Below, piece after piece: positions 5,901 through 24,286 of a stretch of 24,286 bases of DNA. The stretch comes from a virus. The stretch spans positions 1 through 24,286 of IMG/VR virus record IMGVR_UViG_3300036826_000062; one strand, written 5' to 3'. Below the pieces are notes generated by a model. It saw only the letters and a program-made list of their open reading frames with translations. It did no database searches and had not been told where the DNA came from. Positions within the stretch are counted from its first letter, which is position 1. The number at the start of each line of letters is the position of its first letter. Made by a program: the position numbers and the translations under genes.

Positions 5901-8900
5901 TCCGCCCCTGCCGATACGCCTCGAACAGGTCGGGGTTGTCCTCGACCGCGCGCCGAATCTGCGCCGCGATGACCGGCTCGTCGCGGACCATCGAGTCCAG
6001 GTTGGGCATGTTGGCTTCGGTGCGCGCCGACGGTGGCGTGCCGACTGCTCTTTGCACGGCTTCAGCGTCGGTCAGCGCGGTGCCGACGATGCCGCCGCGC
6101 TGCCCGCTGATTTCTCCGCGGTCCTGCCGAATCGAGCCGCGCCCCTTGCTCAGGACAATCTCCTGCGCCGTACGCGCGCCTTCGTCTCGAGCGCCGCCCG
6201 CTTCGCCGACTGGCGCAGCCCCTGGCTCGGGCGGAGCGCCGGTATCGAAGGGAAGCTCAGTCGGAGCCGTCGCTCGCGCAGCTTCCTCGGCGCTCGTGAC
6301 GCGCACCAGGTTGGGCTCCGCCGGCGCGTTCGCCATCTGCGCGTGCGCCTGCTCGATCGCGCCGAGCTCGGCGTCTAAGAGTGTCCGCTCTCGCCTGAGC
6401 TCGGCTGGCGTCTGCTTCTTGCCCAGAAGCTCCTGGTTGCCGATCCAGCGCCCCTCACGCAATTCGTCGCGCACCTCGCCCGAGCCTTCCTCAAGACCGA
6501 CACGGTCGTACCAGCCCTCTTCGTAGGGGCTCGCGCCGTGCTCCCGAGCGATGTAGGCAATCTGCTTCTCGGTCAGCCCTGCGGCCCACCGCGGACGGTC
6601 GATCTTCTGGCCCGCGTTGCGGATCATCTCGTCCACCGTGTCGCGCTGGTTCTGGACCGCCTGGTAGCGGTCCTCCAGGTCGCTGGCGTAGCTCAGCATC
6701 TCGTCTGCCGACATCGGCGTTTCGCCGGGCGCGGCCTCGCGCAGCGCGTAGCGATTGGAATAGACCTCGCCCAGGGTGCGCGGCTCGCGACCGCTGACCG
6801 TGCGTGGAGGCACCTCACCTGGGCCTCCTGGAGGCTCCTGCGTCGTCGCTCTGAGCTCGAGCCCCTGTCGGGCCTCCGGAGCGCGAAACCCCTCAGAAAC
6901 GCGTCCTGGAGCGACCTCAGCGGGTCTGAGCGGGCCGGCCAGCCCGCGGGTGATGCCGTGCGTCGCTGCCAGCCCCGTCAGCGCGCCGAGCCCGATGTTC
7001 CTCAGCCGCTCTTCGGGAGACGCTCCTTCGGGAGTGGCGGCATTGCCGGCAATGCCTCCTGCGAGCCCACCAGCGGCATTGATGGCGAACGGAACGTTTG
7101 CCTCGCCGCGGGCTCTTCGCGCGACGGCAGCGCGGACGACGTCTCCGACGCCGGTGCCTGGGGGCTGCGCGGCGGGGAAGTCGGCCCCTGGCGCGTCGCG
7201 GAAGAGCGACGCTGCGAGCCTTTGACCACGAAGCTCGTTCCCTGCTGGTACACCCAATGGTCCTGCGGCGCTGGACTGATTCCGAGCGCCTCGAGCTCGG
7301 CCTGCTCCTGCGGTGTTAACGGCATGCGTCTCTCCCGAGTATGCAACGACGTTGGCCTGCGCGCCCTCATTCGCCAGCACGCGCTGGACCGCCTTCCCCA
7401 GAGCTCCGATCTTGCCTTCGGTCAGCGGCACGCGGATGCCCGTACCCGTCTGCTCGCGGATGACCGGCAGTCCCTCACCCTGCAGCGCCTGGGCGATGCG
7501 CGCCTGCTCCGCCTGCCCGGGCAAGCCGTCAATCGCGAGACCACCGCTGCCGCGGGCGTTGGGATCGGCATGGTTGAAGCTGTCTGCCCCGAGCCGCCGA
7601 CCGACGACGTGCGCCGCCTCGTCGCCGATGCCGACGACATTGACGTAGGTGTTCGGTCCGACCTTCTGTACGTCATGCTCGGGCACGAGCCAGGGAATCT
7701 TCCCGTTCTCGTCCAGGCTGATGTCGCCGCCGCGGACGCGCAGGATCGGCGAGTCGCTGATCGCCAGGTCGCGCAGCACCGCCGCTGGCCCGTTACCGAC
7801 GGGACGCCGCGGCCTGGTCGCGCTCGCACCGACCGTCTTGCCGTACTGGAAGCCCGACGGATCGAGTACCCCGCGCTGCTGCGCCGCGCTCTGGATCGAC
7901 GGGTGGTACAGCGCCCAATCCTGGATGGCGGTCGCCGTATCTGGCGGCGGCGTGTTGTGCGTTGCCGCCAGCGGGTTGCCGTTGGCGTCGACGGCGCGGC
8001 CAGCGATACGGTCGCGCACGTCGTTGATCTTGTTGATGGTCGGGTTCGTCCCGGGCGCGGCGTTGATCCGCGGACCAGCCACCTCCTGGAGCCCCGCGGT
8101 CGCCATCGACGGCGGGTGCAGCACGCCGCTGGCGTAGCCCTGGCGGATGGCGTCGCTCAATCCGATCGCGTCGGTCTTCAGCCCTGGACCGATGATGGGG
8201 TCGTTCCACAGCGTGCGGAAGACGGTCCAGCCCGCGGCCTGCGCCTGCCGTGGCGGAATGTTCATCTCGCGCGCAATCCAGTTGGTCAGCGAGTGCATCG
8301 AGCGGTACGCGGCGTCGTTCCCGCTCACGTCGGGTGTGCCCGGAATGACGTCAGCGCCCCTGGTCGCCGACTGCAGCCTCGAGCCGAAGAGCCGCCCCTG
8401 CCACACGTCCTGCGTCGAATACGGGTCGTACAGGTCGTTCAGCGCGTTCAGGAAATTCTGGGTGTAGCTCGACAGCTTGGCCCCCGACGGGACAGGAATC
8501 TCGCCGGTACGGTAACCGCGCATCACCCGAGCGAGCATGGTCCGATCGGCGTAGCCAGCGTCAGCCCCGACCAGCGCCTCGACGCGGGCGTACTCGGGAC
8601 TGGCCTGAATCTGCGGCACGGTCATGTCCTCGAAACCGCTCAGGTCTGGCTTCGCCCGCCGCATCGCGTCGAAGACGCTCAGCATGGCGTGGTAGTTGGC
8701 CTGGACGCCGGCGTTGCCACCGAAGGCCCCCATCAGGACCGCCGCCTCGCGCGGGTTGATGTCCTGGCCGGTGTCCTGACGTACCTGCTGGACGACCTCT
8801 TCGTACCAGCGCGCCGCGGGCATGCCCGCCTCGACCGCCTCGCGCACCTCGTTCAGGTCGCGCATGCGCGTGCCCTCGAGCCCTGGCAATTGCTGGAGCT

Positions 8901-11340
8901 CGGCCTGGGAGAGGTTCGGCGTCGGCGTGCCCTGGCGTCGCGCCGCATCCTGCAGCGCCTGGTCGGTAACGAACTCGGGCGTGCCAGGCTCGTACCCGGG
9001 TCGCGGAACCGCCATGCCCTCGAGCACGTCTGGCGGGTTGCCGCGCACCCTGGCGACGGCGTTGGGTACGCCGCCGAGCGCCGCGCCGACCTGAGCCTGC
9101 GCCGGTTGGCGGCTCCGCAGCGCCTCCTGCACACCAGGTCGCTCGGCCACCGAGCGGACGCCGCCGGCAGCGGTCGAGAGCCCGATATCGCCAGCCAGCG
9201 GACCGACGAAGCCGCCGACCAGCGGCGCGAACGGGCGCAGCCCTTCTGGGAGATTCGGCGCGCCCGCCTCGCCTGCCGCGGTGCCGAGCCCCTGCGCGGC
9301 TATCTGCGTCAGCGCCGTGACCAGCCCTCGCGCGGTCAGCCCCTCTGGACCCGCGGCGATGGTCATGATCACGTTCATCGGGTTGAGCGTCTGACCGAGC
9401 GCGGTGCGCGTGAACTGCTCCTGCTCGGGCGTCGGGTTCCAGCCCGCGGCCTTACCGCGCTGGATGATCGCCAGTGCCGCGGCGTCGCCCGTCCTGGCCG
9501 AGCCTTCCTGCCCCGCGGCCTCACCCGCAGCACCAGCCATGAGCCCGGTGCCCAGACCGAGCGTGTCCTGCTCCACCTGGCTGACCGGCACGCCGGCAAG
9601 GTCGGCGAGTTGCTGGCGTCGCCCTTCGGGGGTCTGCGCCTGAGCTCGCGCGGCCTGCACCTCTGGCGGTTCGGTGAACGCCGCGCGCGTGGCGCTGCCG
9701 AGACCGCTGAAGCCCTGGCCGATCGTCTCGCCAGCGGTGTCGAGTGCCTGGCGTGCGGGGGTGCCCGCGGCCAGCGGCGGCGTTTCCTGGGCGGCGTTGA
9801 TGCGGTCGCGCAGGGTGCTGATCTGATCCTGCAGCGCGTTCAACTGCTCGAGCGCCTGACGGTGGTCGATGACCAGCGGCTGGAGCGTCTCCTGGCCGCG
9901 GTCCAGCCCCGCCTGCAGGACGTCGGACGCCGCGCGCCTGCCGCCAGTGATCGCGCCGCCGACGGCGTCAGAGACCGCGGCGGGAGCGTTCTCGACTGCC
10001 TGGCCGACCTGGTCGCGGATGCTGGTGTACGTCCTGGTGACGCCGTCGACCCACCCCTGCGCGGGGTAACCAGGCTCGTCCACCACGTAGCCGGCCTGCC
10101 GTAGATCGTTGACGAACTGGACCGGGTTGTGGCGGTCGGCCCACGCCTGCGCGTAGCGCGGCGCGCCGCTCACCAGGTCTACGAATGCCTGGAACGACGC
10201 CGCCGGGGAGTCGTAGCCAGCCCACCTCGAGCCGTTCTGACCGTTGCCCTGGATCGAGAAGAGGTTGTTGAGCTTCTGCGCGTTCGAGCTCTGGCCCCAT
10301 CCCGTCTCCCATCCAGCGATGCTGGTGAGGATGGCGGGGTCGATGCCTGTCGCGTCGCCGACTTGCTTGGCGAGACCGGCCACCGAGTCGATGAAGGCAT
10401 CCTTGCCCTGGCCGACCCGATCGAGCGTTGACTGCAGCGGTGACGCCTGCGTCGGAGTTGGCGCGGTCGCGACCGCTGCGCCGCCAGGTTGCTTGGTGCC
10501 CTGCTCGTACGGGCGCGGGTCGATCAACTGGTTCAGCGGGTCGCCGCTGGCGGCGTTCTTGCGGACCTCGTAGTGCAGATGCGGCGAGCCTTCGGTGCCG
10601 CTCTCGCCCATCTCGGCGATGTGCTGGCCGCGCTGCACCTGGTCGCCGACCTTCACGTCGGCCTGCTGGAGATGCATGTACGCGTGCGTCAGCCCGTCCG
10701 AGTCCTGGACGTAGACGATCAGCCCACCAGCGCCGCCAGGGTCGCGGAAGACGTTGGTGACCGTACCCGGCGCGAAGGCGTCGACCTCCGTCCCGATGCC
10801 GCCGCCGTTGGCTGGCACCAGGTCGACGCCGCGGTGCGGCGTGCCCGTTCGGTAGTCGCCGGTGTAGGTCGCGCCGAAGTCGAACTGCGTCTTCCACTTC
10901 GAGCCCAGGCCCGTCACGTCGGTGCTGGTCGCTGGCTCGCTCGAGTGCGGCAGCGCCCCCGTTCCTGGCTGCGGCTGGCTCAGGTCGGTCGGCACCTGGT
11001 TGGTCTGCTGGTTCCCCTGGACGACCTGGTTAGCGTAGTCGGTGAGTTGCTTCTGGACGTTGGCGGCGTTGTTGGCCTGCTGCTGCGCCTGGTCTGCCGC
11101 GGCCTGCCGCGCGGCGTCTGCAGCCTGCTGTGCCTGGTTGTACGCCTGCGTCGCGTACTCGGATAGCTGCGCCTGGACGTCCTGGAGCGACGAGCGCCCC
11201 GCCCGCTGCAAGTCCTCGAGCGTGTCACCGACCGTCTGCTGGACGGGCTGCAGGATGTTCTGATTCAGCGAACGCGCGTAGCTCTGGAGTTGATCCTCGA
11301 TCGACCCCTGCAGATCGTCTTTGAGGATCGTTCCAGGCAT
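2983..11340 (-). CDS. Giant polyvalent ejection-type virion protein with M23 peptidase and glucosaminidase-like domains
   Basis: This 2785-residue protein starts at the ATG at 11340, 3 nt after the preceding stop. Residues 10-120 form a Gln/Ala helix. Residues about 165-280 are an M23 (LytM-type) endopeptidase with HRGVD (H169, D173), AYMH (H223) and the HLH pair (H254, H256). Residues about 305-445 resemble FlgJ-type glucosaminidases or lysozymes, with E345 in GWETGWG as candidate acid and an NNLFSIQG motif. Residues about 820-900 hold a small phage domain (ARWYEE, REAAVLMGAFGG). Residues about 1900-2120 are a charged coiled coil. The C-terminal third has the THMVN and PFVQTPANI motifs I associate with large polyvalent phage proteins, and a hydrophobic segment near 2445. 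The likely role is cell-wall penetration and DNA ejection, analogous to T7 gp16 or N4 internal virion proteins. The analogy is inference; the hydrolase motifs are visible. Confidence 0.88.
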   Translation of the reverse strand: MPGTILKDDLQGSIEDQLQSYARSLNQNILQPVQQTVGDTLEDLQRAGRSSLQDVQAQLSEYATQAYNQAQQAADAARQAAADQAQQQANNAANVQKQLTDYANQVVQGNQQTNQVPTDLSQPQPGTGALPHSSEPATSTDVTGLGSKWKTQFDFGATYTGDYRTGTPHRGVDLVPANGGGIGTEVDAFAPGTVTNVFRDPGGAGGLIVYVQDSDGLTHAYMHLQQADVKVGDQVQRGQHIAEMGESGTEGSPHLHYEVRKNAASGDPLNQLIDPRPYEQGTKQPGGAAVATAPTPTQASPLQSTLDRVGQGKDAFIDSVAGLAKQVGDATGIDPAILTSIAGWETGWGQSSNAQKLNNLFSIQGNGQNGSRWAGYDSPAASFQAFVDLVSGAPRYAQAWADRHNPVQFVNDLRQAGYVVDEPGYPAQGWVDGVTRTYTSIRDQVGQAVENAPAAVSDAVGGAITGGRRAASDVLQAGLDRGQETLQPLVIDHRQALEQLNALQDQISTLRDRINAAQETPPLAAGTPARQALDTAGETIGQGFSGLGSATRAAFTEPPEVQAARAQAQTPEGRRQQLADLAGVPVSQVEQDTLGLGTGLMAGAAGEAAGQEGSARTGDAAALAIIQRGKAAGWNPTPEQEQFTRTALGQTLNPMNVIMTIAAGPEGLTARGLVTALTQIAAQGLGTAAGEAGAPNLPEGLRPFAPLVGGFVGPLAGDIGLSTAAGGVRSVAERPGVQEALRSRQPAQAQVGAALGGVPNAVARVRGNPPDVLEGMAVPRPGYEPGTPEFVTDQALQDAARRQGTPTPNLSQAELQQLPGLEGTRMRDLNEVREAVEAGMPAARWYEEVVQQVRQDTGQDINPREAAVLMGAFGGNAGVQANYHAMLSVFDAMRRAKPDLSGFEDMTVPQIQASPEYARVEALVGADAGYADRTMLARVMRGYRTGEIPVPSGAKLSSYTQNFLNALNDLYDPYSTQDVWQGRLFGSRLQSATRGADVIPGTPDVSGNDAAYRSMHSLTNWIAREMNIPPRQAQAAGWTVFRTLWNDPIIGPGLKTDAIGLSDAIRQGYASGVLHPPSMATAGLQEVAGPRINAAPGTNPTINKINDVRDRIAGRAVDANGNPLAATHNTPPPDTATAIQDWALYHPSIQSAAQQRGVLDPSGFQYGKTVGASATRPRRPVGNGPAAVLRDLAISDSPILRVRGGDISLDENGKIPWLVPEHDVQKVGPNTYVNVVGIGDEAAHVVGRRLGADSFNHADPNARGSGGLAIDGLPGQAEQARIAQALQGEGLPVIREQTGTGIRVPLTEGKIGALGKAVQRVLANEGAQANVVAYSGETHAVNTAGAGRARGARNQSSAAGPLGVPAGNELRGQRLAASLFRDAPGADFPAAQPPGTGVGDVVRAAVARRARGEANVPFAINAAGGLAGGIAGNAATPEGASPEERLRNIGLGALTGLAATHGITRGLAGPLRPAEVAPGRVSEGFRAPEARQGLELRATTQEPPGGPGEVPPRTVSGREPRTLGEVYSNRYALREAAPGETPMSADEMLSYASDLEDRYQAVQNQRDTVDEMIRNAGQKIDRPRWAAGLTEKQIAYIAREHGASPYEEGWYDRVGLEEGSGEVRDELREGRWIGNQELLGKKQTPAELRRERTLLDAELGAIEQAHAQMANAPAEPNLVRVTSAEEAARATAPTELPFDTGAPPEPGAAPVGEAGGARDEGARTAQEIVLSKGRGSIRQDRGEISGQRGGIVGTALTDAEAVQRAVGTPPSARTEANMPNLDSMVRDEPVIAAQIRRAVEDNPDLFEAYRQGRISQDSLKNDLATRVGMSLEDWKKTKVGQGFNPEELVALQAAAIEQQGRLEDLGRDILAKGGIDELSPEELAFSVARLADATQILAVARGGRTTAGRTLNALKNVFDRTQAQGITASNERIAAQRLASQARRAAAKATSVLTKGRELEREATTAKAEASRQGAPKNIIDQIAKAYDDLDKYNAMTLHEKAAVQDALKAERAKRAAARKARVRGAPEELLKALQDELRAEQDNFARRRDTWETMAFWDSKSFENAMQKRTNFRGQLYIEQQRKVANIAAKNAEKEAAAQFTRSLNERVNQQKKTERLLEAIGGREVTKEVLGNFLATLNDPDPGATAKFLKGMAKQTNWGRAAIVRIAGLVSAPITHMVNLGGNTAGALIEDLAVRPTVVGIDKIRAAVTGGERQAYAGELLPSLQAYGPGFLGSLGNAVRVLRTGINPNEAADLSKIRAGFQSGNEVVDAAVEMPLRLLTAEDVLFRGGATAYHATRVATREAIREGFRGKAVLGRANSIIKNLEDYPELAKEVADAAARDVYQERRNIPLPRQFPGQDTAATRAGRAAVQQVVPFVQTPANITAQGIAMSPLGFAGALEAMQGAREMPRGTRAERYAQGRQTLLAEERAARAMLGTGLLGAGLALGAAGMMTAAYPEDPKEASTLPQGWRPWSLRLRNPIDGSYDYIPLQNLGVMGMPLAMAAIATDPTHKGKNIFSDSDTLGQAATGIGKYVIDNTFLQGVSDFIDALQDPQRRGSKFAEGLVASYGPYSSLGREMQRAFGVASRNPREGLRGLIDAMEANYPGLSGNVPPTLTPLGEERTQGATGLGRLIPYRYDVERDEPTLQALRLGNVGVPAVPKAVGVGRGYGVDLTEDERVGLQRSRGQAIIAAVDKLRQNPRFAAYERTLNTAPRNSPAYADALTRYNGALQAAVSGAAESANNQFVRQLGRDQVQARMKLNRDIEPTYLGAPPGPALEEAVGG

Positions 11341-14279: not shown

Positions 14280-14423
14280 TCAGTACAGGTCCGTCCAGGT
14301 ACAGCCTGGTCGCTCACAGAACACCTCGCCATAGCCGCGGAAGCGCACCAGGTGACCGATCGCCGGCCAGAGCCAGTAATCGAGCCACGGCCAGCGACTG
14401 CCGATGTAGCAGCGCCAGTTCAT
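14280..14423 (-). CDS. 47-residue Trp-rich Cys-motif protein between terminase and portal
   Basis: ATG 14423 overlaps the large terminase stop as ATGA, with GAGG just upstream, and the gene ends 19 nt before the portal start. The product (MNWRCYIGSRWPWLDYW and on) has six Trp, a Cys near the N-terminus and a C-terminal FCERPGC pair. This layout, a short Cys/Trp helix followed by a Cys pair, resembles small zinc-binding proteins often seen in phage genomes. Zinc binding is inference from three Cys residues. Function is unknown. Confidence 0.55.
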   Translation of the reverse strand: MNWRCYIGSRWPWLDYWLWPAIGHLVRFRGYGEVFCERPGCTWTDLY

Positions 14424-15685
14424 CGCCTCGAGCCAGCAAATCCATATCTCGTCCGCGCAGCCGGGGTGCTGCGCTCGTGTTGCGAGCCAAGATACGCCAA
14501 AGAGAGCGCGGTGACGCAATCATCGTGCATTCCAGACGGAGCACCGTAACGCAGCATGCCGGTAGCACTGACCTTGGCCTCGTACGCCAGGAGCTCGCCC
14601 GACTGCGTCGCGTCGTCCAGGAGCGTGATCAGCCCCTGCTCGATGCCCAGGGAAAGCGCCTGGACCGCCGCCGCCTTGCTCGCGTTGGTCGCCGTCCAGG
14701 AGTAGACCGGCAGCGGTTGCCGCGGCGCGCCGATGACCCGCGGGTAGCCACGTTGCAGTCGCTCCACCAGCGGACCGCCCATACTGTTGGCCTCCGCCAC
14801 GATCTGCAGCGGCTTGTAAATCTCCGCCAGCTTGTGCAGCCGCTCGGTCTGGAACTCGTACTCGGTCTGCGAGTAGCGGTCGATGACGCGCTGTTCCATC
14901 AACGTCGCGTCCAGGACGCTCACGACCGTGTAGTCGTTCGTTCTGCCCCAATCAACGCCGAAGACGTGGACGTGCCCGCGGGTGGGGCCGGCTGGCTTCA
15001 GCCTCGAGACCGCCCCGACGCCGCGGAAGACGCCCGCTCCTTCAACCTGCAGGAAGCGCGCCTCGAACTCCTGCGCGTAGTCGCGCTCGGGCATCTCCTG
15101 CTTGGCCGCGGCGAGCTCGTCCTTGCGAATATGCGGATTGACCGCCGTCGGCATCTGCCACGACATCCAGTCCTGCTCCTGGTCATCCTGGCCGCGCAGG
15201 TACAGCACGTAGAAATCGTTCAACCCGCGGGGGGTGCTCAACCACCAGGACTGACCGCCCAGGTCGGCCAGCGTTGGCCGTAAGGCTTGATTCCAGATGT
15301 CCAACAGGTTGGGCACCATCGCCGCCTCATCGACCACGATCCTGGCGTACTTCCGACCGCGGGCGGGATCGCCAGTGTCCATCGACCAGCACTCGATCGT
15401 GCCGCCGCCGTACACCTCGAGCCGATGCTCCTGCTCGCTCTTGTTGGTCACCACCGGCCCCAGGAGCCGCTTGAGCTCGCGCCAGCTTTCCTCCAGGAGC
15501 TTGTACGTCGGCCCAAACCAGCCCGCCGGCTGGTGCTCGAGCGCCGTCCTGATCACGAGCTCGTGGCCCATCGTGCTCTTGCCCGACCGTCGCCCCAGAG
15601 CCACGACGTTGTGCCGCCGCGCCTCCCGCTGAATCTGCGCCTGAGCGTTGTGCGGTCTGGGCAGCAGGACGCTGAAATCAGGCAC
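14420..15685 (-). CDS. terL: Terminase large subunit (packaging ATPase and nuclease)
   Basis: This 421-residue two-domain motor translocates DNA through the portal and cuts the concatemer. Visible motifs are Walker A GRRSGKST (31-38), Walker B IVVDE (116-120), the coupling motif STPRG (150-154), and the RNase-H-like nuclease carboxylates D245 (FGVDWGR), E299 (AEANSMGG) and D386/D387 (HDDCVTAL). The set is complete, so both activities are expected. The start is GTG 15685; a weak AGG lies 8 nt upstream. This ribosome site overlaps the -35 box of the divergent plus-strand promoter. The gene is separated from the putative small subunit by a reverse-oriented cassette, so its mRNA must run antisense through that cassette unless a promoter inside it is used. 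Confidence 0.93.
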   Translation of the reverse strand: MPDFSVLLPRPHNAQAQIQREARRHNVVALGRRSGKSTMGHELVIRTALEHQPAGWFGPTYKLLEESWRELKRLLGPVVTNKSEQEHRLEVYGGGTIECWSMDTGDPARGRKYARIVVDEAAMVPNLLDIWNQALRPTLADLGGQSWWLSTPRGLNDFYVLYLRGQDDQEQDWMSWQMPTAVNPHIRKDELAAAKQEMPERDYAQEFEARFLQVEGAGVFRGVGAVSRLKPAGPTRGHVHVFGVDWGRTNDYTVVSVLDATLMEQRVIDRYSQTEYEFQTERLHKLAEIYKPLQIVAEANSMGGPLVERLQRGYPRVIGAPRQPLPVYSWTATNASKAAAVQALSLGIEQGLITLLDDATQSGELLAYEAKVSATGMLRYGAPSGMHDDCVTALSLAYLGSQHERSTPAARTRYGFAGSRR

Positions 15686-15715
15686 TTGACACGCCTAGTC
15701 TATGCGGCTTACAGT
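15686..15715 (+). promoter_or_regulatory. Sigma70-like promoter of the plus-strand cassette
   Basis: TTGACA at 15686-15691 matches the -35 consensus exactly. TACAGT at 15710-15715, after an 18-nt spacer, matches four of six -10 positions. Transcription would begin near 15721-15723, at the ATG of the first cassette gene. The match is visible; activity is inferred. Confidence 0.6.
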
Positions 15716-15722
15716 AAGCGGC

Positions 15723-15980
15723 ATGGTGCAATCCACTCTCGACTCCGCCCTCGACGCTGCGCTTGACCGCCACGTCGTTGAGCTTCGCAACGGCGCGACC
15801 GTCACGCTCTTCCGCGACCAGCACATCGTCCGCACCAAGAGCGGCCAGAAGCTGCACAAGTCGCATCCTGGCTCGAGCGTCACGTACTGCGGTCACTGGC
15901 TCAAGGTCGAATCGACGTACTTCAAGGTCATCCCGACCAACGTCACCCCCGCCCACGTCATGTGCGAGAAGTGCTTCTGA
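15723..15980 (+). CDS. 85-residue putative zinc-binding protein, first gene of the reverse-oriented cassette
   Basis: This small protein lies on the opposite strand to its neighbours. I chose ATG 15723 over the in-frame ATG at 15702 because the latter falls inside the promoter spacer and so would not be transcribed. There is no Shine-Dalgarno sequence, and the predicted transcript starts at or within 2 nt of the ATG, so translation may be leaderless. Residues 19-40 look like a beta-hairpin. YCGHW (C56, H58) and CEKC (C81, C84) could form a zinc site. Small phage and actinobacterial proteins with a CG-then-CxxC layout are familiar to me, but their function is not established. The next gene is coupled through TGATG. 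Confidence 0.72.
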   Translation: MVQSTLDSALDAALDRHVVELRNGATVTLFRDQHIVRTKSGQKLHKSHPGSSVTYCGHWLKVESTYFKVIPTNVTPAHVMCEKCF

Positions 15981-16204
15981 TGGAACAGCTTTCACTCTTC
16001 GCCTCACCCGACCAGGACGTCATCGCCGACGCCGAGTACCCCACCTCGTACCGCATCGAGCGCAACGGCTCGTTCGTCGTCACCGCAAACGTGCCCGGCG
16101 TCGGCAGGATCACCTCCCGCGGGCGCTTCCTGTGGGAGACCTACCAGGACTGCCGCACCAGGATCGCCCACGCTCTTCAGTCCAGGCCCGACGCGATGTT
16201 CTAG
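15980..16204 (+). CDS. 74-residue protein, second gene of the reverse-oriented cassette
   Basis: ATG 15980 shares a base with the stop of the previous gene (TGATG); an in-frame GTG at 15962 is an alternative. The product begins MEQLSLFASPDQDV, then has a likely beta-rich middle (SYRIERNGSFVVTANVPGVG) and an Arg-rich helical end. It is unrecognised, with no catalytic motif. Its TAG stop lies in a CTAG that is also the stop of the opposing gene. A strong terminator follows 23 nt later. Confidence 0.7.
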   Translation: MEQLSLFASPDQDVIADAEYPTSYRIERNGSFVVTANVPGVGRITSRGRFLWETYQDCRTRIAHALQSRPDAMF

Positions 16205-16662
16205 TCGGGCTCGAGCCCGTTGTCCTGACCGCCCTCCGTGGCGGTCTTTTCATGTCCGTTGCCAGACGGAAGCTCGTGATACGCGACCTCGATCGCTTCC
16301 TGGACCGCCTGACCCGTCACCCCGAGCGCCTCGTTGACGACGTCCTGGTAGCTCACCGTGATGCTCACCTGGTTGTCGACCGCCACCTCTTTGGTCGCGA
16401 CCACGCCCGCCCGATCGAGAATGCTTTCCGCCGCTTTGAGCCTGATGGCGTGGCTCTCACCGCGCAGCATCATCGTGCGAAGTGTCGAGACCGCCGGCAT
16501 CACGAGCTCGTCCAGCCGCTTGTTCGCGGCCTCCCGAATATGGCGCGTTGAGCCGCCGTGCATCCTGCACACCCGACCGCCTCTGATCGCCGGCGCTCGG
16601 CAGGGTTGCCCGTCGGAACGGTGCGCCTTACAGCGTAGCCAGCCGTCGGTATGGTCCGGCAT
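16201..16662 (-). CDS. Putative terminase small subunit (HGG-motif protein)
   Basis: This 153-residue protein starts at ATG 16662, 12 nt after the nuclease gene. Residues 8-40 carry a Cys/His motif (CKAHRSDGQPCRAPA, then VCRMHGG), which I know from phage proteins encoded beside the large terminase. A helical segment with SILDRAGV follows near residue 80, consistent with DNA binding or oligomerisation. The last 20 residues are polar and overlap the opposing terminator. The role, recognising phage DNA and loading the large subunit, is inferred from family habit and position. An alternative is a generic small zinc-finger DNA-binding protein. Unusually, the large subunit is not adjacent: a reverse cassette separates the two. 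Confidence 0.6.
   Translation of the reverse strand: MPDHTDGWLRCKAHRSDGQPCRAPAIRGGRVCRMHGGSTRHIREAANKRLDELVMPAVSTLRTMMLRGESHAIRLKAAESILDRAGVVATKEVAVDNQVSITVSYQDVVNEALGVTGQAVQEAIEVAYHELPSGNGHEKTATEGGQDNGLEPD
16227..16250 (+). terminator. Rho-independent terminator of the plus-strand cassette
   Basis: GACCGCC (16227-16233) and GGCGGTC (16240-16246) form a perfect 7-bp GC-rich stem around a 6-nt loop, followed by TTTT. The U-tract exists only in the plus direction, so it ends the cassette transcript. It lies inside the 3' coding part of the opposing terminase-like gene. A perfect 12-bp palindrome (16207-16218) lies just upstream. Confidence 0.75.
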
Positions 16663-17643: not shown

Positions 17644-20600
17644 TCAGTGCTTGTCTTCGTCGGCATAGCTCGCCACCTCTTCCGGGTCGCAGTGAACGAC
17701 CACTCCCTCGACCAGCGGCTGCATCGCCGCTTCCATGTTGCTCTTCAGCCACTGCTTGCAGAGCGCCACGTCGCCCTGGTCGCACTCGGCGATGAGCTCA
17801 TCGTGAACCATCATCACCAGCCGTGCCGAAGGCACGCTTGACCTGGTGTCGTAGAGCCGTGTCATCGCCAGCTTGAAGCCGTGCGCCTCGACCATCTGCA
17901 CCGGCGTGTTGGCCTTGACGTTGTTGCTGAAGATGCGCCGACGACGACGCCCCGAGCCGCTGAAGTCGATGACCTCCGCCTCGTCGCCCCACGCTCCCAG
18001 GCCGCGGTGCCAGGCTCGGATGCCTGGATAGGTCTTGAAGAACAGACTGCGCTGGCGCTTGGCCTCGTCCTCGCTCAGCACGATGCCGTTCTTGCGCTGC
18101 TCCCGCCGAAAGGTATCCGCGCCTGCGCCGAACAGGAAGCCGAAGTTGATCGCCTTCGCTTCCTGGCGCGTGCAGCCCACCGCGGCGGCGGTCGCCGAGT
18201 GAATGTCGCCGCCCGGCGTGTTCAGAATCTGGCGCATGGTGCGGTCCTCGCTCAGCCACGCCGCGATGACGAGTTGCAGTTGCGAGTAATCGGCGCGGAC
18301 AAAGGCGCGACCTGGTCCTGGCCGAATGCTCTTGCGCGCCAGCGTCTCGTGCGGCAGTTGCTGCAGGTTGGGGTCAGCGCAGCTTGTGCGGCCCGTCTGC
18401 GCGCCGATCGGGTTGAACGACGCATAGATGCGACCGTCTGGCGCGACTGAGCTCAGCGTCTTCCGGAGCAGGCCCATGCACGTCCCTGCCGAGCGGTACC
18501 CGAGCAACGCGTCGATGATCGGATCGTCCGACTGTGCCTCCATCAGCGCGTCGATGCCCGTCGAGACGAGCTCGAGACCGCGCTCCTGCAGGATCGGCAG
18601 CACCTGGCTCGGCGAGCGCCAGTTGACGTTCACCCCGACGCCAGCGATGCCGTTGAGCTCCTGCAGCCGATCGTCTACCAGCGCCTCCTGCTCGGCGATG
18701 GCGCGCTTCAGGATGCCGACGTCGCACGGCACGCCGGCTGACGCCAGCCACCAGGTCGCGGCCTGGACGTTGCGCTCGAGATTCAGGCAGGACACCAGCG
18801 AGTCGGCGTCGGGGTCGGCAAAGAGCGCATCCTCGAGCGCGACCGCCGCAGCGTAGGTGACCCGCGCGTCCTCCGCGGCGTACGCGAGCTTGGCGTGCCG
18901 AAGGCTTCCTGGTGGGACGTCCCAACCGCGCTTCTGCTCGGTCTTAGCGACGTGCTCGTGCAGATGCCGCTTGGCGATGCCCTGCAGCCGATAGTCGACG
19001 TGCGCCTCTTCCGACTCCAGGACCATCGCCATCGTCTTGACGTCCAGGATTTTGGATGGCTCGACGCTCAGCCCGACCTGGGCCAGGAACGCCAGGTCGA
19101 ACAGGTACGTGTGCATCCTGACCGAGCCGACCTCGTCCAGGTAGCCTTGCAGCGCCGACCAGGGGTCGTTCGTCGGACTGTTGTGCGCGACAGCCCAGAC
19201 GTCGATGACGACGTGCGTCGCGCCGTCGGACAGGTTGATCGTCCGCAGCTTGTCGCGATGCGCGTCCAACCCGGTCGTCTCAGTGTCCAGCGAGCATGCC
19301 GCGGTGCTGAGCAGCGAGACCGCTTCGCTGAGCTCGACCATGTCCAGCACCGTCAGGTACTCGAGCGTCGGCGCAGCCAGGTCCGCGGCCTCGAGCCGAG
19401 CGAGCTCGCGCGCCGCCTTCGCTTCCGCCAATTTCGCGACCGCTTCGGGTGTTTTGGCCTTTGCTGTTCTAGCTGTTCCCGAGTTCCCCCCTCTAAAGAG
19501 GGGGGGAGAAAACCCCGGAACAGCTAGGTTTTCCTCAACCCCCCTTAAGGGGGGTTGCTCCTGGACCTGTTCCGGAATTCCAGAACCCGCCGGAACAGGT
19601 GGAACAGGTGGAACAGGTGGAACAGCTTCGGCCTCGTGGGTGATATGCACCTGGAGCGGAAGCCAGTACACGATCGCCTGACCGTGCTTGGCACTCTTGA
19701 CGTCGCCGCTCACGACCATCACCTTCAGGTTTTCCGTTACGGCGGCTTTCTGCTTGCCGCTTTTGACGGTCACCTCCGCGGACGTCTTGCCGTTCGCCTC
19801 GTTGGTCGCGCCCAGGTCGCGCAGCGCCTGGAGGATGACGCCCTGCAACCGCTCTTCCCTGGACTGGACCGCGCCGATCAGCTTGTACCGCTCGGTCTGC
19901 TTATCGAGTTCGAGCGTCAGCGGCTCGATGCTCGCCGACATCCTCGAGCGGCAGCGCAGGATACGCAGGTTAGTGGTGTCTTCGTCGCCCTTGAACGGCT
20001 CAATCTGCAGCAGGAGGTCGCAGTAGCCGCTGATGGCCGAGCTCCCACGCCCGGCGTCGCCGACGTCGCCACCGCTCTTGCGCGAGTGGCGCAGGATCAG
20101 CACCGCGAACCCGGCGTTGGCTAACCTGCGAATCTCATGCATCACCCCTGCCGCCTTGCCGGAGTGATCCTCTTCGTCCAGCCCGGCGACGACGCTCAGC
20201 GTGTCCAGGACGATGACGTCCACGCCACGTTCCTGACCCTGCTCGATCAGGTCATTAACGATCTGCGGAAGGTCCACGCCCACCGGCGTCTCGAAGTCGA
20301 AGACGGTGTAGAAGCCGTCTGACTCGCCCAGGTCGCTCAGCCCGTAGCGCACCAGGTTCTGCTGGAACGTTCCCACGCCCTCTTCGGTGACGTAGCCGAC
20401 GCGGATCGGACGCAGGATCGCCTTGCCGCAGTAGCTCTCGTCACCGGCTATCGCCGCGCGCAACCCCTCCAGCGCGAAGGTAGTCTTGCCCATCTTCACC
20501 TTGGCGACGAGCTCGGTCATCAGCCCTTTGCTCAGCCAGTCCTGGATCAGCCACTCGACCTGTTCCGCCGCCATCGCCATGACATCCGGCACGGAGTGCC

Positions 20601-21555
20601 ACTTCAAACCGCTAACCCCCTTAAGGGGGTTAGAAACTGCGTCTCTAGCTGTTCCGCTGTTCCCACCCCTATAGGCGGAATTCCGGAACAGCTTGACGCG
20701 GATGGGTGGAACCGACCGCTGCGCGGCCTCGCGGTAGCGAAACGCGGCGTTCCGCCGAGTCGAATACTTGTGCCAGCCGAGCGCCTCGTCGCGCTCCTTG
20801 AGGATGCTGGCGACCGCCTCCAGGTCGTGCAGCCCGGCGTCCCAGACCATACGCCCGATGTCGATGAGACCCTGGCTGCGGTCCGCGGCAGCGCCGACGC
20901 CGAGCCAGACCTGTTGCTGCTGCGCGTCCAGGTCAAACGGCAGATCGTCGTCCCACGCCTCGAGCGGCTCGTCGTTCACCGATTCTCGCTCGGTCAGGTA
21001 CGCCGCCTGGAAGTCTTCGATCCACTCGGGAGCCTCGACCGGCAGGACGCGGTCGACCCACTCGTACCGACGCCCGCTCTCGTGCATCGACGGTGGCGCG
21101 ACGCAGTAGCCGTCGCTCAGGACGTCGTAGCGACCGCGCTGCGCGTTGCGGACCGCTGGCATATCGCCGCGGAGGTAGAGCCAGTGCTCGTGCCCCTCGC
21201 CGCCGCCAGAGCGGAAGTGCATCGTCCGCGGCAGGCCCAGGCCGACGAAACGGGTCCACCACTCGGTCGAGTCTGGCGCGACGTCTACCAGTCCCGCGGG
21301 GCCGAGCGCGATGCCGACGTTGCCGTCGGGGTGCAGCGTCCACCAGGTCGCGATGGTCGCCTTGTCGGTCGTCGCCGACTGGTGCGCTTTGGGGCAGAGC
21401 TCGCCGATAGGGTGCTTGCCTGGCTTGCACTTGCCAGCCAGCTTGTACTTGTCGGGGCAAGCGCACTTGCCGTCGATGATCGGATAGAGGATGAGAACGG
21501 GGTAGCCGGCGTCGGCGTATCCGAGCGCTGCAGACAAGCATGTGCTTGTCTTCAC
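17644..21555 (-). CDS. Primase-polymerase / RepA-like helicase / 3'-5' exonuclease / family-A DNA polymerase fusion
   Basis: One 1303-residue chain carries a near-complete replication engine. Residues 10-185: archaeo-eukaryotic primase-polymerase domain, with the Cys cluster (C31, C33, C43, C54) and GKHP, VDVAPD (D91), SGGGEGHEHW and an APPSMHESGRRYEW strand. Residues 330-520: RepA/AAA_25-type ATPase, with Walker A VKMGKTT (K357) and Walker B VIVLD (D451). Residues 566-632: winged-helix-like. Residues 755-910: proofreading exonuclease, D757/E759, D820, Y892/D896. Residues 925-1303: PolA with motif A D1089, motif B R1130/K1134/F1138 and motif C HDE 1251-1253. There is no 5'-nuclease domain. 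GTG 21555 is chosen because GAGGG lies 7 nt upstream; an in-frame ATG at 21588 has a weaker site. Both main linkers contain palindromic repeats. Position 1142 is Phe where E. coli Pol I has Tyr766. Confidence 0.93.
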   Translation of the reverse strand: MKTSTCLSAALGYADAGYPVLILYPIIDGKCACPDKYKLAGKCKPGKHPIGELCPKAHQSATTDKATIATWWTLHPDGNVGIALGPAGLVDVAPDSTEWWTRFVGLGLPRTMHFRSGGGEGHEHWLYLRGDMPAVRNAQRGRYDVLSDGYCVAPPSMHESGRRYEWVDRVLPVEAPEWIEDFQAAYLTERESVNDEPLEAWDDDLPFDLDAQQQQVWLGVGAAADRSQGLIDIGRMVWDAGLHDLEAVASILKERDEALGWHKYSTRRNAAFRYREAAQRSVPPIRVKLFRNSAYRGGNSGTARDAVSNPLKGVSGLKWHSVPDVMAMAAEQVEWLIQDWLSKGLMTELVAKVKMGKTTFALEGLRAAIAGDESYCGKAILRPIRVGYVTEEGVGTFQQNLVRYGLSDLGESDGFYTVFDFETPVGVDLPQIVNDLIEQGQERGVDVIVLDTLSVVAGLDEEDHSGKAAGVMHEIRRLANAGFAVLILRHSRKSGGDVGDAGRGSSAISGYCDLLLQIEPFKGDEDTTNLRILRCRSRMSASIEPLTLELDKQTERYKLIGAVQSREERLQGVILQALRDLGATNEANGKTSAEVTVKSGKQKAAVTENLKVMVVSGDVKSAKHGQAIVYWLPLQVHITHEAEAVPPVPPVPPVPAGSGIPEQVQEQPPLRGVEENLAVPGFSPPLFRGGNSGTARTAKAKTPEAVAKLAEAKAARELARLEAADLAAPTLEYLTVLDMVELSEAVSLLSTAACSLDTETTGLDAHRDKLRTINLSDGATHVVIDVWAVAHNSPTNDPWSALQGYLDEVGSVRMHTYLFDLAFLAQVGLSVEPSKILDVKTMAMVLESEEAHVDYRLQGIAKRHLHEHVAKTEQKRGWDVPPGSLRHAKLAYAAEDARVTYAAAVALEDALFADPDADSLVSCLNLERNVQAATWWLASAGVPCDVGILKRAIAEQEALVDDRLQELNGIAGVGVNVNWRSPSQVLPILQERGLELVSTGIDALMEAQSDDPIIDALLGYRSAGTCMGLLRKTLSSVAPDGRIYASFNPIGAQTGRTSCADPNLQQLPHETLARKSIRPGPGRAFVRADYSQLQLVIAAWLSEDRTMRQILNTPGGDIHSATAAAVGCTRQEAKAINFGFLFGAGADTFRREQRKNGIVLSEDEAKRQRSLFFKTYPGIRAWHRGLGAWGDEAEVIDFSGSGRRRRRIFSNNVKANTPVQMVEAHGFKLAMTRLYDTRSSVPSARLVMMVHDELIAECDQGDVALCKQWLKSNMEAAMQPLVEGVVVHCDPEEVASYADEDKH
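19469..19527. repeat. Palindromic element A1 inside the replication gene
   Basis: An 11-bp perfect inverted repeat, CTAGCTGTTCC (19469-19479) and GGAACAGCTAG (19517-19527), encloses a second 9-bp stem, CCCCCCTCT/AGAGGGGGG (19486-19505). It is read in frame as codons for about residues 677-696 (LAVPGFSPPLFRGGNSG) in the linker between helicase and exonuclease. The ends match those of the elements at 20647 and 22385, but the core differs. Confidence 0.8.
19536..19557. repeat. Perfect 22-bp palindrome A2 (C6TTAAG6 core)
   Basis: The palindrome is a CCCCCCTTAAGGGGGG core flanked by CAA and TTG, perfect over 22 bp. It is read in frame as part of QPPLRGVEE in the same linker. No U-tract follows on either strand and it is inside a gene, so it is unlikely to be a terminator. 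It closely resembles the palindrome at 20612. Confidence 0.8.
19565..19600. repeat. Inverted repeat A3
   Basis: ACCTGTTCCGG (19565-19575) and CCGGAACAGGT (19590-19600) are perfect 11-bp arms around a 14-nt loop containing AATTCC. The arms share the CTGTTCCGG core of the other elements. It is translated in frame as the linker segment GSGIPEQVQ. Confidence 0.75.
19592..19627. repeat. Four tandem 9-bp units (GGAACAGGT x3, GGAACAGCT)
   Basis: Four direct 9-bp repeats are identical except for one base in the last. On the coding strand they read as a Val-Pro-Pro repeat (VPPVPPVPPVP, residues about 644-654). The first unit is the right arm of the inverted repeat at 19565. The repeats may have arisen by slippage from an element end, or may be binding sites (iterons). 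Confidence 0.85.
20612..20633. repeat. Perfect 22-bp palindrome B1 (C5TTAAG5 core)
   Basis: A CCCCCTTAAGGGGG core flanked by CTAA and TTAG gives a perfect 22-bp palindrome. It is read as SNPLKGVS in the linker between the primase-polymerase and helicase domains. It is a close relative of the palindrome at 19536 but is read in a different frame. Confidence 0.8.
20647..20693. repeat. Palindromic element B2, 47 bp, in the replication gene
   Basis: Terminal 10-bp inverted repeats AGCTGTTCCG and CGGAACAGCT surround a core with CCCCTATAGG and GGAATTCC. It matches the element at 22385-22431 at 44 of 47 positions. It is read as KLFRNSAYRGGNSGTA (about residues 288-303), in the linker between the primase-polymerase and helicase domains. 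Confidence 0.88.
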
Positions 21556-22066: not shown

Positions 22067-22503
22067 CAGCAGCGCCTGGACGTGACCGGCCACCGACCAT
22101 AGCCCAGGTTCCTCACTCCCCACGCCATCGCGTCGATGCTGGCGATGGGATCGGTCCTGGACGCACCGGCCTTGCCCTGCGGCGTCTCGTACCAGGTCGC
22201 CAGGTCGAACTGCGCCAGCCCCAGGTACGGTCCTGACCGCGCCCACGGTAGCCACGAGCTCTCGCCCTGAATCATGCAGTCCAGCTTGCGCGCCTGCCGC
22301 GGGTAGGTCGCGTACAGGTACGCCTTCGGCGTCATCGGCGGCGGCTGGAGACGCTCGTCGTCCACGAGCTCTGGCTCGAGATCGACCTGTTCCGCTGTTC
22401 CAACCCCTATAGGCAGAATTCCGGAACAGCTATCTGAGCACTCGTCCACACCATCGGTCAGAGCCTGCCCGACCAGGAGCAGACCAGCGAGTAAGACTGC
22501 CAT
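22066..22503 (-). CDS. Secreted lysozyme / lytic transglycosylase-like protein
   Basis: This 145-residue protein has a hydrophobic N-terminus (AVLLAGLLLVGQAL, residues 2-15) that looks like a signal peptide or signal-anchor. A linker follows that contains a palindromic DNA element (residues 25-40). The lysozyme-like domain spans about 60-145. E81 in QGESSW is the candidate catalytic acid; GLAQFD (95-100), TWYETP and a final WGVRNLGYGRW segment match small transglycosylase-like proteins. C76 and C145 could form a disulphide, which would suit export. The start is ATG 22503, 9 nt after the previous stop, with a poor ribosome site. A phage endolysin or SAR-type enzyme is possible, but the gene sits in the replication module rather than beside a holin. 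Confidence 0.75.
   Translation of the reverse strand: MAVLLAGLLLVGQALTDGVDECSDSCSGILPIGVGTAEQVDLEPELVDDERLQPPPMTPKAYLYATYPRQARKLDCMIQGESSWLPWARSGPYLGLAQFDLATWYETPQGKAGASRTDPIASIDAMAWGVRNLGYGRWPVTSRRC
22385..22431. repeat. Palindromic element C, 47 bp, in the lysozyme-like gene
   Basis: It differs from the element at 20647-20693 at only three of 47 positions, and the terminal inverted repeat (CTGTTCCG/CGGAACAG) is conserved. It is translated as SCSGILPIGVGTAEQ, a different frame from the other copy, directly between signal peptide and catalytic domain. Confidence 0.88.
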
Positions 22504-22512
22504 CCGTCGACG

Positions 22513-22821
22513 TTAGCCGACCTTGCGCCGCCGCCGCCGACGCGGGGTCGCTGCGGCGTCATCGAACAACGACGCTACAAAGTCGCTCAGGAGCGTCTGC
22601 GCCCTCACGTTGAAGCGACGCAGCAGATCGTTCTGGCCGGCGTCCCACCCCGCCAGAAACGCCGGCAGCGCGTCGCGGTGCGCGCGGTGGTGGTCCTCGC
22701 TCTTCTCCCACATCTCCAGGTAGCGGAACTGGCACTCGTCGGGCAGCGGGTCGAAGACCGCGCGCACCTCGTCCGACATACGGTCCACGACTGCCTGGTA
22801 CGTATCACCCACGCTGTACAT
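22513..22821 (-). CDS. 102-residue hypothetical protein
   Basis: This protein is unrecognised. It starts at ATG 22821, with GGGG 9 nt upstream, and overlaps the methyltransferase end by 17 bp. The sequence looks wholly helical, with many acidic residues and His in the middle (WEKSEDHHRAHRD). It ends in a strongly basic stretch, PRRRRRRK, that may bind nucleic acid. It sits between a DNA methyltransferase and a lysozyme-like gene in the replication operon. No enzyme motif was seen. Confidence 0.72.
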   Translation of the reverse strand: MYSVGDTYQAVVDRMSDEVRAVFDPLPDECQFRYLEMWEKSEDHHRAHRDALPAFLAGWDAGQNDLLRRFNVRAQTLLSDFVASLFDDAAATPRRRRRRKVG

Positions 22822-23803
22822 GGCGTTGTTCCCCTTTGCGGAAGATCAGGTAGACCGCGCCGTTGTTGTAGGCGGTCATCTGTGGCCCCCAGGACGGGTC
22901 GATGAAGGCGTGCGACCGCACCTGGTAGACCTTGTCGTACGGCCAGTGCCCGACCGCGTCGCACACCAGCAGGCTCATGTCGTTGAAAACCTCGCCGTGG
23001 TTGTGGTCGGCAACCTTGACGACGATGCCCTTCGAGCACACGCGCCAGCATTCACGGGTGCCGTCCTCGATCAGCTTCTCGAGCGCGTCCTGGTCCTTGA
23101 CCGTGCCGAACCTGTTCGCCATCTCCGAGTCTTCGCCGCCGTCGGCGAGATGCGGCGGGTCGAACAGAACGACGTCGATGCTGGCGTCTTCGTAGTCCAG
23201 GTCTTCAACCAGCATCACCCCGTCGGGCGCGCGAGATTCCTCCTTGTCATGCGCGGTGACGGTGACGTGCGCGGTCCCGTCCCAGAAGTTGCCCTCGCCG
23301 TAGCAGGGGTCCAGCGCGGTCCGAGCGTCGGGGAACAGAATCCGCAGGATCAGCGTGACGATGGTCGCCGACGGCACCTCGTACATGAACCGCAGCAGCG
23401 GTCCGACCGGCGCAGCATCGACCTCGAGCGGCACCGCGGGCGGCACCGGCTTCGGTGGACGACGGTTGCGCTCCAGGAGCTTGACGTACTTGACCGCCGC
23501 GGTGACTGGCGTACCTGGCGGCAATTTCCGAATTTCTTCGGAATTTCGAGCCAGCCGCATGAAGTTTTCCGCCATGTCCTGGCCGAGCGGGAACACGCCG
23601 GTCTCGAGCCAGGGAAGCCACTCGCCGTGGCCGAGCGTGGCTTTGTGGTCGATCAGTGCCTGGCCCAGGTCGACCGCCATGTCCTTCGTCCGCTGCCACG
23701 CGGTAGCGAACTCCTGGACGAGCTCGGCGACGCGGCGCTCGGTGGGGGAATTGCCCCCCACCAGCACCAGGTCGCTTGAATCAGAACGGGGGGTCGTCGT
23801 CAT
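22805..23803 (-). CDS. DUF3102-like domain fused to a DNA methyltransferase-type domain
   Basis: This 332-residue protein starts at ATG 23803, which overlaps the upstream gene by 23 bp. A longer in-frame reading to 24082 is Arg/Ser-rich shadow sequence and is rejected. Residues 20-110 resemble DUF3102 (QALIDHKATLGHGEWLPWL, then AENFMRLARNSEEI), a helical region seen in phage and plasmid proteins. Residues 135-325 look like a Rossmann methyltransferase: LDPCYGEGNFW (163-173) as the SAM-binding motif and VLFDPPH (212-218) as the DPPY-type catalytic motif of N4/N6 amino-methyltransferases, here with His. It probably methylates phage DNA, perhaps against host restriction. The target sequence cannot be read from the protein. 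Confidence 0.8.
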   Translation of the reverse strand: MTTTPRSDSSDLVLVGGNSPTERRVAELVQEFATAWQRTKDMAVDLGQALIDHKATLGHGEWLPWLETGVFPLGQDMAENFMRLARNSEEIRKLPPGTPVTAAVKYVKLLERNRRPPKPVPPAVPLEVDAAPVGPLLRFMYEVPSATIVTLILRILFPDARTALDPCYGEGNFWDGTAHVTVTAHDKEESRAPDGVMLVEDLDYEDASIDVVLFDPPHLADGGEDSEMANRFGTVKDQDALEKLIEDGTRECWRVCSKGIVVKVADHNHGEVFNDMSLLVCDAVGHWPYDKVYQVRSHAFIDPSWGPQMTAYNNGAVYLIFRKGEQRHVQRG

Positions 23804-24286
23804 CCGCCGTCTCGTCTCCCATCGCTGCGAGCTCGGCCTGGAGCCGCGCCCTGCGCTCCGCCGCGGTCTCGCGGATCGCCTCACGCGCCATCCGATCGAC
23901 GCGGTTGGCTTCGACCGCCGCAGACGGCGCGACCGGCGTGCTGCCGTTGGTCTCGGGTGCTGCCGTCCGGGTCGCCGACCGCGGCACCGGGCGGAGCAGC
24001 GCGAACTTGAGCTTCTTGCTGCCCGTCTTGTCGTCGGTCTCGATCGTCCAGGATGCTCGAGCGCGCTTGCCGACCAGGGCACCGTCGAAGTTTTCGGCGA
24101 GCCGCTCGCACTCGTCGTCGGTGAGCTCGTGGCCCAGGAACGCCGAAGCCCAGAGCCGAGCCTTGGAGGGACCGCGCTTGCCCTTCGCCAGGGACATGCT
24201 CGAGAACTCGACCAGGTCGTAGGGAGACTGGTCGATCATGTTCAGGAACGCGACGCCGTTCGAGTCGAAGATGCGGACGTGCCACA
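23781..24286 (-). CDS. Partial gene resembling phage ssDNA-binding-type proteins, N-terminus off the right edge
   Basis: The frame stays open from the TGA at 23781 to the window edge (168 codons). The residues ahead of the internal ATG at 24239 (WHVRIFDSNGVAFLN) look genuinely coding, so the true start probably lies outside. KRGPSKARLWASAFLG, then ELTDDECERL, then GALVGKRARASWTIE resembles phage proteins of the early region that I associate with ssDNA binding: an OB-like core, then an acidic tail. The end, DETADDDDPPF, is a short acidic tail with a final Phe, as in many single-strand binding proteins that recruit partners through their tip. Position at the head of the replication module agrees. 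The family assignment is tentative. Confidence 0.65.
   Translation of the reverse strand, partial: WHVRIFDSNGVAFLNMIDQSPYDLVEFSSMSLAKGKRGPSKARLWASAFLGHELTDDECERLAENFDGALVGKRARASWTIETDDKTGSKKLKFALLRPVPRSATRTAAPETNGSTPVAPSAAVEANRVDRMAREAIRETAAERRARLQAELAAMGDETADDDDPPF

Follow-up and report, generated by a model that had tools for sequence, protein, structure and literature searches.

An exchangeable two-gene cassette between phage terminase genes encodes small proteins with a candidate motif for the host beta clamp

Two small plus-strand genes, p85 and p74, lie between the terminase genes TerS and TerL of a phage and are best explained as the contents of a cargo slot, whose proteins may dock on the host beta clamp and probably interfere with host replication or repair. 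We give this reading, which is drawn from sequence comparison, a probability of about 55%. The analysed stretch (the window) is an IMG/VR virus record of 24,286 bases with a GC content of 67%. All of its well-supported genes are held by the minus strand, the p85/p74 pair being the sole exception. The features of the locus are the following.

14420–15685, minus strand: TerL, left border of the slot (Terminase_6N/6C, phrog_2)
15686–15715, plus strand: promoter, TTGACA (15686–15691), 18-bp spacer and TACAGT (15710–15715), 7 bp from the p85 ATG
15707–15719, no strand: inverted repeat GCTTAC-A-GTAAGC spanning the -10 element, outer three pairs covarying
15723–15980, plus strand: p85, cargo gene 1, an 85-residue orphan (codon score, GC3 0.87)
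15980–16204, plus strand: p74, with homologues at the equivalent position in relatives (Q3, L4, F7, M73 and F74 invariant; AlphaFold2 model)
15986–16000, plus strand: codons of the candidate clamp-binding motif QLSLF (consensus in PMC11139829)
16201–16662, minus strand: TerS, right border of the slot (phrog_2538 terminase small subunit, 4e-5; phrog_3678, 1e-10; syntenic in relatives)
16227–16250, plus strand: intrinsic terminator, 7-bp stem and TTTT, within the 3' coding end of TerS

The two genes are coupled through TGATG, in which the TGA of p85 (15978–15980) overlaps the ATG of p74 (15980–15982), while the stop codons of p74 (16202–16204) and TerS (16201–16203) overlap in a CTAG. The coordinates and the minus-strand flanks thus confirm a preliminary description of this DNA, which had noted two TGATG-coupled small plus-strand genes opposing all of their neighbours. 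Both genes are coding-like by codon use. The codon score is positive for both and negative for their antisense and shifted frames, GC3 is 0.87 for p85 and 0.89 for p74, and the pair stands at the top when plus-strand ORFs of the whole window are ranked by score.

Elsewhere in the window, positions 2983–11340 (minus strand) encode a 2785-residue protein with Peptidase_M23 and glucosaminidase matches, the remainder having no Pfam match; this is a very large protein, either internal to the virion or polyvalent. A 425-residue ORF at 22805–24082 (minus strand) matches DUF3102 (E 6e-6). Palindrome-rich dispersed repeats of 50 nt occur at 19468–19517, 20644–20693 and 22382–22431, reading GGAACAGCT...GGAATTCC plus a CCCCCTTAAGGGGG pair; two of them sit within the DNA polymerase gene, and they are small REP/MITE-like elements.

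Relatives were taken from IMG/VR as TerL matches. With the near-identical loci L012–L015 counted as one, the cassettes amount to nine distinct alleles from one phage clade, a modest sample in which six alleles carry p74 and the p74 copies are homologous. These homologues (44–60% identical) lie antisense in the TerS–TerL gap of L002, L004, L005, L006 and L012–L015, other small genes occupy the gap in L009, L010 and L011, and TerS and TerL abut or overlap, leaving the gap empty, in L003, L007, L008 and L016. On the TerL tree the cassette is present in 12 of the 15 rows of one clade, the empty members being L003, L007 and L008, and the empty L003 is sister to the filled L004. In about 28 outgroup loci (TerL 58–64%) neither motif nor promoter was found in the gap where upstream sequence was available. 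Because the cassette is limited to one TerL clade and is missing from some of its members and from the outgroups, we read it from these comparisons as a derived accessory insertion. The presence/absence comparison proposed in the preliminary description therefore yields a cassette that is present, absent or replaced by other genes, and not universally conserved; the interruption of a terminase pair, which it had called unusual, is indeed seen in one TerL clade only. More distant TerL relatives that have no cassette, G008 (15735–16175) and G009 (23499–23966), encode large serine recombinases at these positions, and their branch is probably temperate.

The cassette promoter is the only sigma70-like site between 14300 and 17600, where 0.3 would be expected. 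Across the nine distinct alleles its only invariant parts are TTGAC and TACAGTA, and the distance from the -10 element to the ATG is 7–8 bp in all of them (7 bp in the window). Since this distance is so short, the cassette transcript is predicted to be leaderless. The geometry resembles that of known leaderless genes, which carry TANNNT some 12 bp ahead of the start codon and are frequent in Actinobacteria and Deinococcus-Thermus (PMC3160421). The inverted repeat over the -10 element has the form NNNTAC-A-GTANNN across the alleles, with outer arms that covary (every one of 54 cells is paired, with 11 double changes); in the controls, shuffles gave 0 of 500 and slid positions 24–48%. As the repeat lies upstream of the predicted start, it would have no role in the plus-strand mRNA, and it is therefore either an operator or a hairpin within the opposing, antisense TerL leader.

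The terminator stem-loop (16227–16246) reads GACCGCC-CTCCGT-GGCGGTC and is followed by TTTT. By the scan alone such terminator-like sites are not uncommon, 1.4 being expected, but the folding z is -2.5. An equivalent site with a differing stem is found in nine of nine distinct alleles, and none was found in the three empty alleles L003, L007 and L008. Chance occurrence of the promoter and the terminator is excluded mainly by the conservation of both in all nine cassette alleles. The consensus TTGACA with a plausible -10 and the perfect 7-bp stem with a U-tract, both proposed in the preliminary description, accordingly stand, the -10 being the TACAGT after the 18-bp spacer.

Comparison with the closest relative (TerL 99%, TerS 91% identical) places the borders of the exchanged segment at these signals. 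The DNA of the two is 94.5% identical until position 15725, the final base of the p85 start codon, similarity is then lost over the cargo, and it returns at 93.3% from position 16227, where the terminator stem begins. At the protein level, p74 is 53% identical as against 99% for TerL. The alignment shows that the cargo is exchanged en bloc between start codon and terminator, with promoter and terminator staying in place. Gene order varies as well. In L002, p74 comes first (53% identical) and is followed by a 78-residue zinc-ribbon-like protein, with TGATG between the two genes, and in L006 a zinc-type reading frame upstream continues into p74 with no intervening stop. The TGATG junction into p74 reads TGATGGAACAG in the window, L004 and L012. 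Since the identity breaks and the recurrent TGATG junctions sit there, the boundaries of gene exchange are the start codon, the stop-start junction and the terminator.

The N-terminal peptide of p74, MEQLSLFASPDQ, contains Q3, L4 and F7, which are invariant in the p74 alignment while most other positions have diverged. Homologues begin with MEQLSLF, MQLDLF, MQLELF, MEQLSMF or MEQLDLF, and MQLDLF also starts the first genes of L011 and L012. This corresponds to the beta-clamp ligand consensus QL(S/D)LF, generalised as Q-phi-x-[LM]-[FL] (PMC11139829). The motif is conserved as QLSLF, QLDLF, QLELF or QLSMF and lies in a predicted disordered segment, residues 1–10 of the p74 model having pLDDT under 50; in Hda the clamp motif is likewise carried on a disordered N-terminus (PMC11139829). 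Variants at the C-terminus are EQGSLF (L002 gene 2), KQGELF (L011 gene 2) and VQASLF (L010), each directly before the stop; they are considered weaker because G or A at position 2 weakens binding. The family that combines a zinc-type domain with the C-terminal motif occurs in L002 and L011 only, and no clamp motif was found in p85, the first gene of L004 or the gene of L009.

A terminal motif is present in 8 ORFs inside cassettes and in none of 1925 six-frame ORFs outside them (233 kb, eight contigs), which rules out occurrence by chance. The strict form QL[SDE][LM]F, counted anywhere in ORFs, falls inside cassettes in 8 of 9 cases, although cassettes make up about 2% of the bases. A scan with the promoter-plus-MQLDLF pattern gave no additional cassette, just an unrelated HNH-like ORF. 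In an unrelated AT-rich phage (L057, L058 and L059), a DNA polymerase ORF is adjoined by an HNH-like ORF that has MQLELF at its N-terminus and includes a zinc ribbon. The p74 proteins end with PxxMF (window 16181–16204), in which P, M and F are invariant among the homologues; this is possibly a second, weaker clamp-binding site that would make p74 bivalent. No beta clamp gene was found in these phage records, which may be incomplete, and the phage polymerase, a fused PrimPol/helicase/family-A polymerase, has no QLxLF-type motif. For both of these reasons the target would be the clamp of the host.

AlphaFold2 modelling of p74 from a seven-row alignment gave a disordered N-terminus followed by a beta-beta-beta-alpha domain (pLDDT 76). 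Pfam and NCBIfam contain no match to p74, and outside the clade a profile scan of IMG/VR returned just the known loci while INPHARED matches were at chance level. The C-terminal half of p85 is rich in Cys and His (CGH...CEKC), but no relative of p85 was found in Pfam, PHROGs, PADLOC, IMG/VR, INPHARED phages (best E 0.7) or PDB, and the model built from its sequence alone (pLDDT 52) cannot be used. Neither protein has a nuclease match in Pfam or PHROG, p74 has no invariant His or Asn, and the PADLOC defence models matched none of nine cassette proteins. The proteins diverge fast, with dN/dS of about 0.4–0.85 in most pairs. A host search with TerL against GTDB genomes gave distant matches only (Alicyclobacillus 35%, a Bacteroidetes MAG 43%).

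The promoter type is not confined to the cassette. TACAGTA occurs 15 times in 204 kb of phage contigs; in 13 cases TTGAC lies at promoter distance from it, and the four such promoters outside cassettes all precede a second operon of small genes. This operon is seen in L046 (12283–16252) and in G002 (about 18.9–20.8 kb), the G002 region having two leaderless-type TTGAC/TACAGTA sites; it is probably the early region, located beyond the end of this window. Promoter pairs from one genome are alike beyond the consensus, their own pairing scoring 67, the best of 24 permutations. Because its promoter type also drives the second operon and is matched to it within a genome, the cassette is a separate transcription unit that is probably under the phage's own control. 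The self-contained promoter-to-terminator unit of the preliminary description is thus borne out, but neither its independence of the phage's own programme nor a lysogenic role is supported so far. These comparisons do support leaderless transcription and a control matched to the phage.

From the motif and its setting we infer that p74 docks on the clamp. One lineage would have gained, between TerS and TerL and on the strand opposite to the packaging operon, a slot with its own promoter and terminator. The leaderless mRNA of this slot, made from a promoter type that the phage also employs at another site, would be phage-controlled and probably early. QLSLF on the disordered N-terminus of p74, perhaps together with the C-terminal PxxMF, would enter the hydrophobic pocket of the host beta clamp, with p85 as a translationally coupled partner, and in other alleles a similar motif would be presented by unrelated small proteins, often zinc-ribbon-like. 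The likeliest result of an occupied clamp would be hindered host replication or repair, that is, takeover, since the phage brings a PrimPol/helicase/family-A polymerase of its own but no clamp. The attached domains may vary through an arms race with the host. We put at even odds the broader proposal that cargo diversifies at this one locus, where unrelated families of small proteins convergently gained a clamp motif at either end, as dedicated anti-clamp cargo under phage-matched leaderless promoters. Counting against a clamp slot, some relatives have no cassette, some cassette proteins have no motif, the C-terminal variants carry binding-weakening residues, and Gp168, the known clamp inhibitor from a phage, does not act through the motif pocket (PMC11139829).

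The main rival, which we consider unlikely, is that the cassette genes are remnants or relatives of mobile homing-type elements, descended from a free-standing HNH-type gene in the TerS–TerL gap that lost its nuclease and kept the clamp motif and zinc ribbon as a targeting module. The HNH-like ORF of the unrelated phage mentioned above starts with MKGMQLELF and has a CxxC ribbon, transposases reach the clamp via QLxLF (PMC4549789), gene 1 of L011 has a DHCH-like stretch, and the presence/absence pattern would fit. Against such descent, p74 has no nuclease-like invariant residues and a beta-beta-beta-alpha domain, the cassette has its own promoter and terminator, and the swap points at these signals resemble homologous recombination. 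Equally improbable in our estimate is that the proteins help phage replication or packaging through the host clamp, which would serve phage proteins as a landing site on replicating DNA. A site between terminase genes, the clamp motif and a promoter type common to another phage operon would suit such helpers, but the cassette is dispensable in L003, L007 and L008, whose TerL is otherwise similar, the proteins diverge fast for helpers, and the strand is opposite to that of the packaging genes.

We judge slightly less probable still a classical lysogenic-conversion moron, expressed from the prophage for superinfection exclusion, defence or fitness, with an incidental clamp motif. It would account for the promoter-cargo-terminator layout, the presence/absence pattern and the cargo swaps; however, the records that carry the cassette (and may be incomplete) yielded neither a tyrosine nor a serine recombinase, no defence family matched, the promoter seems to be phage-regulated, and the enrichment of the motif is too strong for an incidental one. 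Spurious ORFs antisense to the TerS–TerL leader are highly improbable: many antisense ORFs arise in high-GC sequence, but codon score and GC3 fit the annotated frame and the p74 protein, the promoter and the terminator are all conserved. For p74 itself, the conserved protein rules this out.

A clamp-directed slot would replace the generic label of moron with a target that experiments can address, the sliding clamp of the host. If the proposal is true, nature would offer here a collection of small clamp ligands that evolve in one slot under one promoter type, of use for learning how host replication is stopped by phages and for work on clamp peptide inhibitors. The promoter/operator signature could also be used to map the genes co-activated by these uncultured phages. 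A partial literature search found no paper on terS–terL cargo with clamp motifs.

Phage morons (Hendrix 2000 and Juhala 2000, as described in PMC6814406) are likewise extra genes at a junction, with their own promoter and terminator, that are missing in relatives. The moron proposed in the preliminary description is thus borne out in organisation and variability, but the promoter is not idiosyncratic: here the type is matched with that of another phage operon, the slot is fixed with exchangeable cargo, and, unlike in a strict moron, the cassette-bearing records give no sign of a prophage state. Beyond that description, the clamp-binding motif suggests a candidate target. The p74 fold is similar in its beta-beta-beta-alpha arrangement to the HicB N-terminal domain and dsRBD (Foldseek probability 0.99, TM about 0.56; VIA Z 5.0–6.6), with an E-value below significance, and this resemblance of the model could be merely a common arrangement. 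Hda, polymerases and IS transposases (PMC11139829, PMC4549789) share with the cassette proteins a canonical pentapeptide at a predicted disordered terminus; in contrast to them, the cassette proteins are 73–82 residues long, belong to new families and have no polymerase, AAA+ or transposase domain. Twort Gp168, like p74 as proposed here, is a small phage protein directed at the host clamp, and it sits in the DNA channel rather than in the motif pocket (PMC11139829). Compared by published binding mode only, p74 differs in having a canonical pocket-binding motif, and a ligand of the motif pocket, if our reading is true, would be a different solution from the channel block of Gp168.
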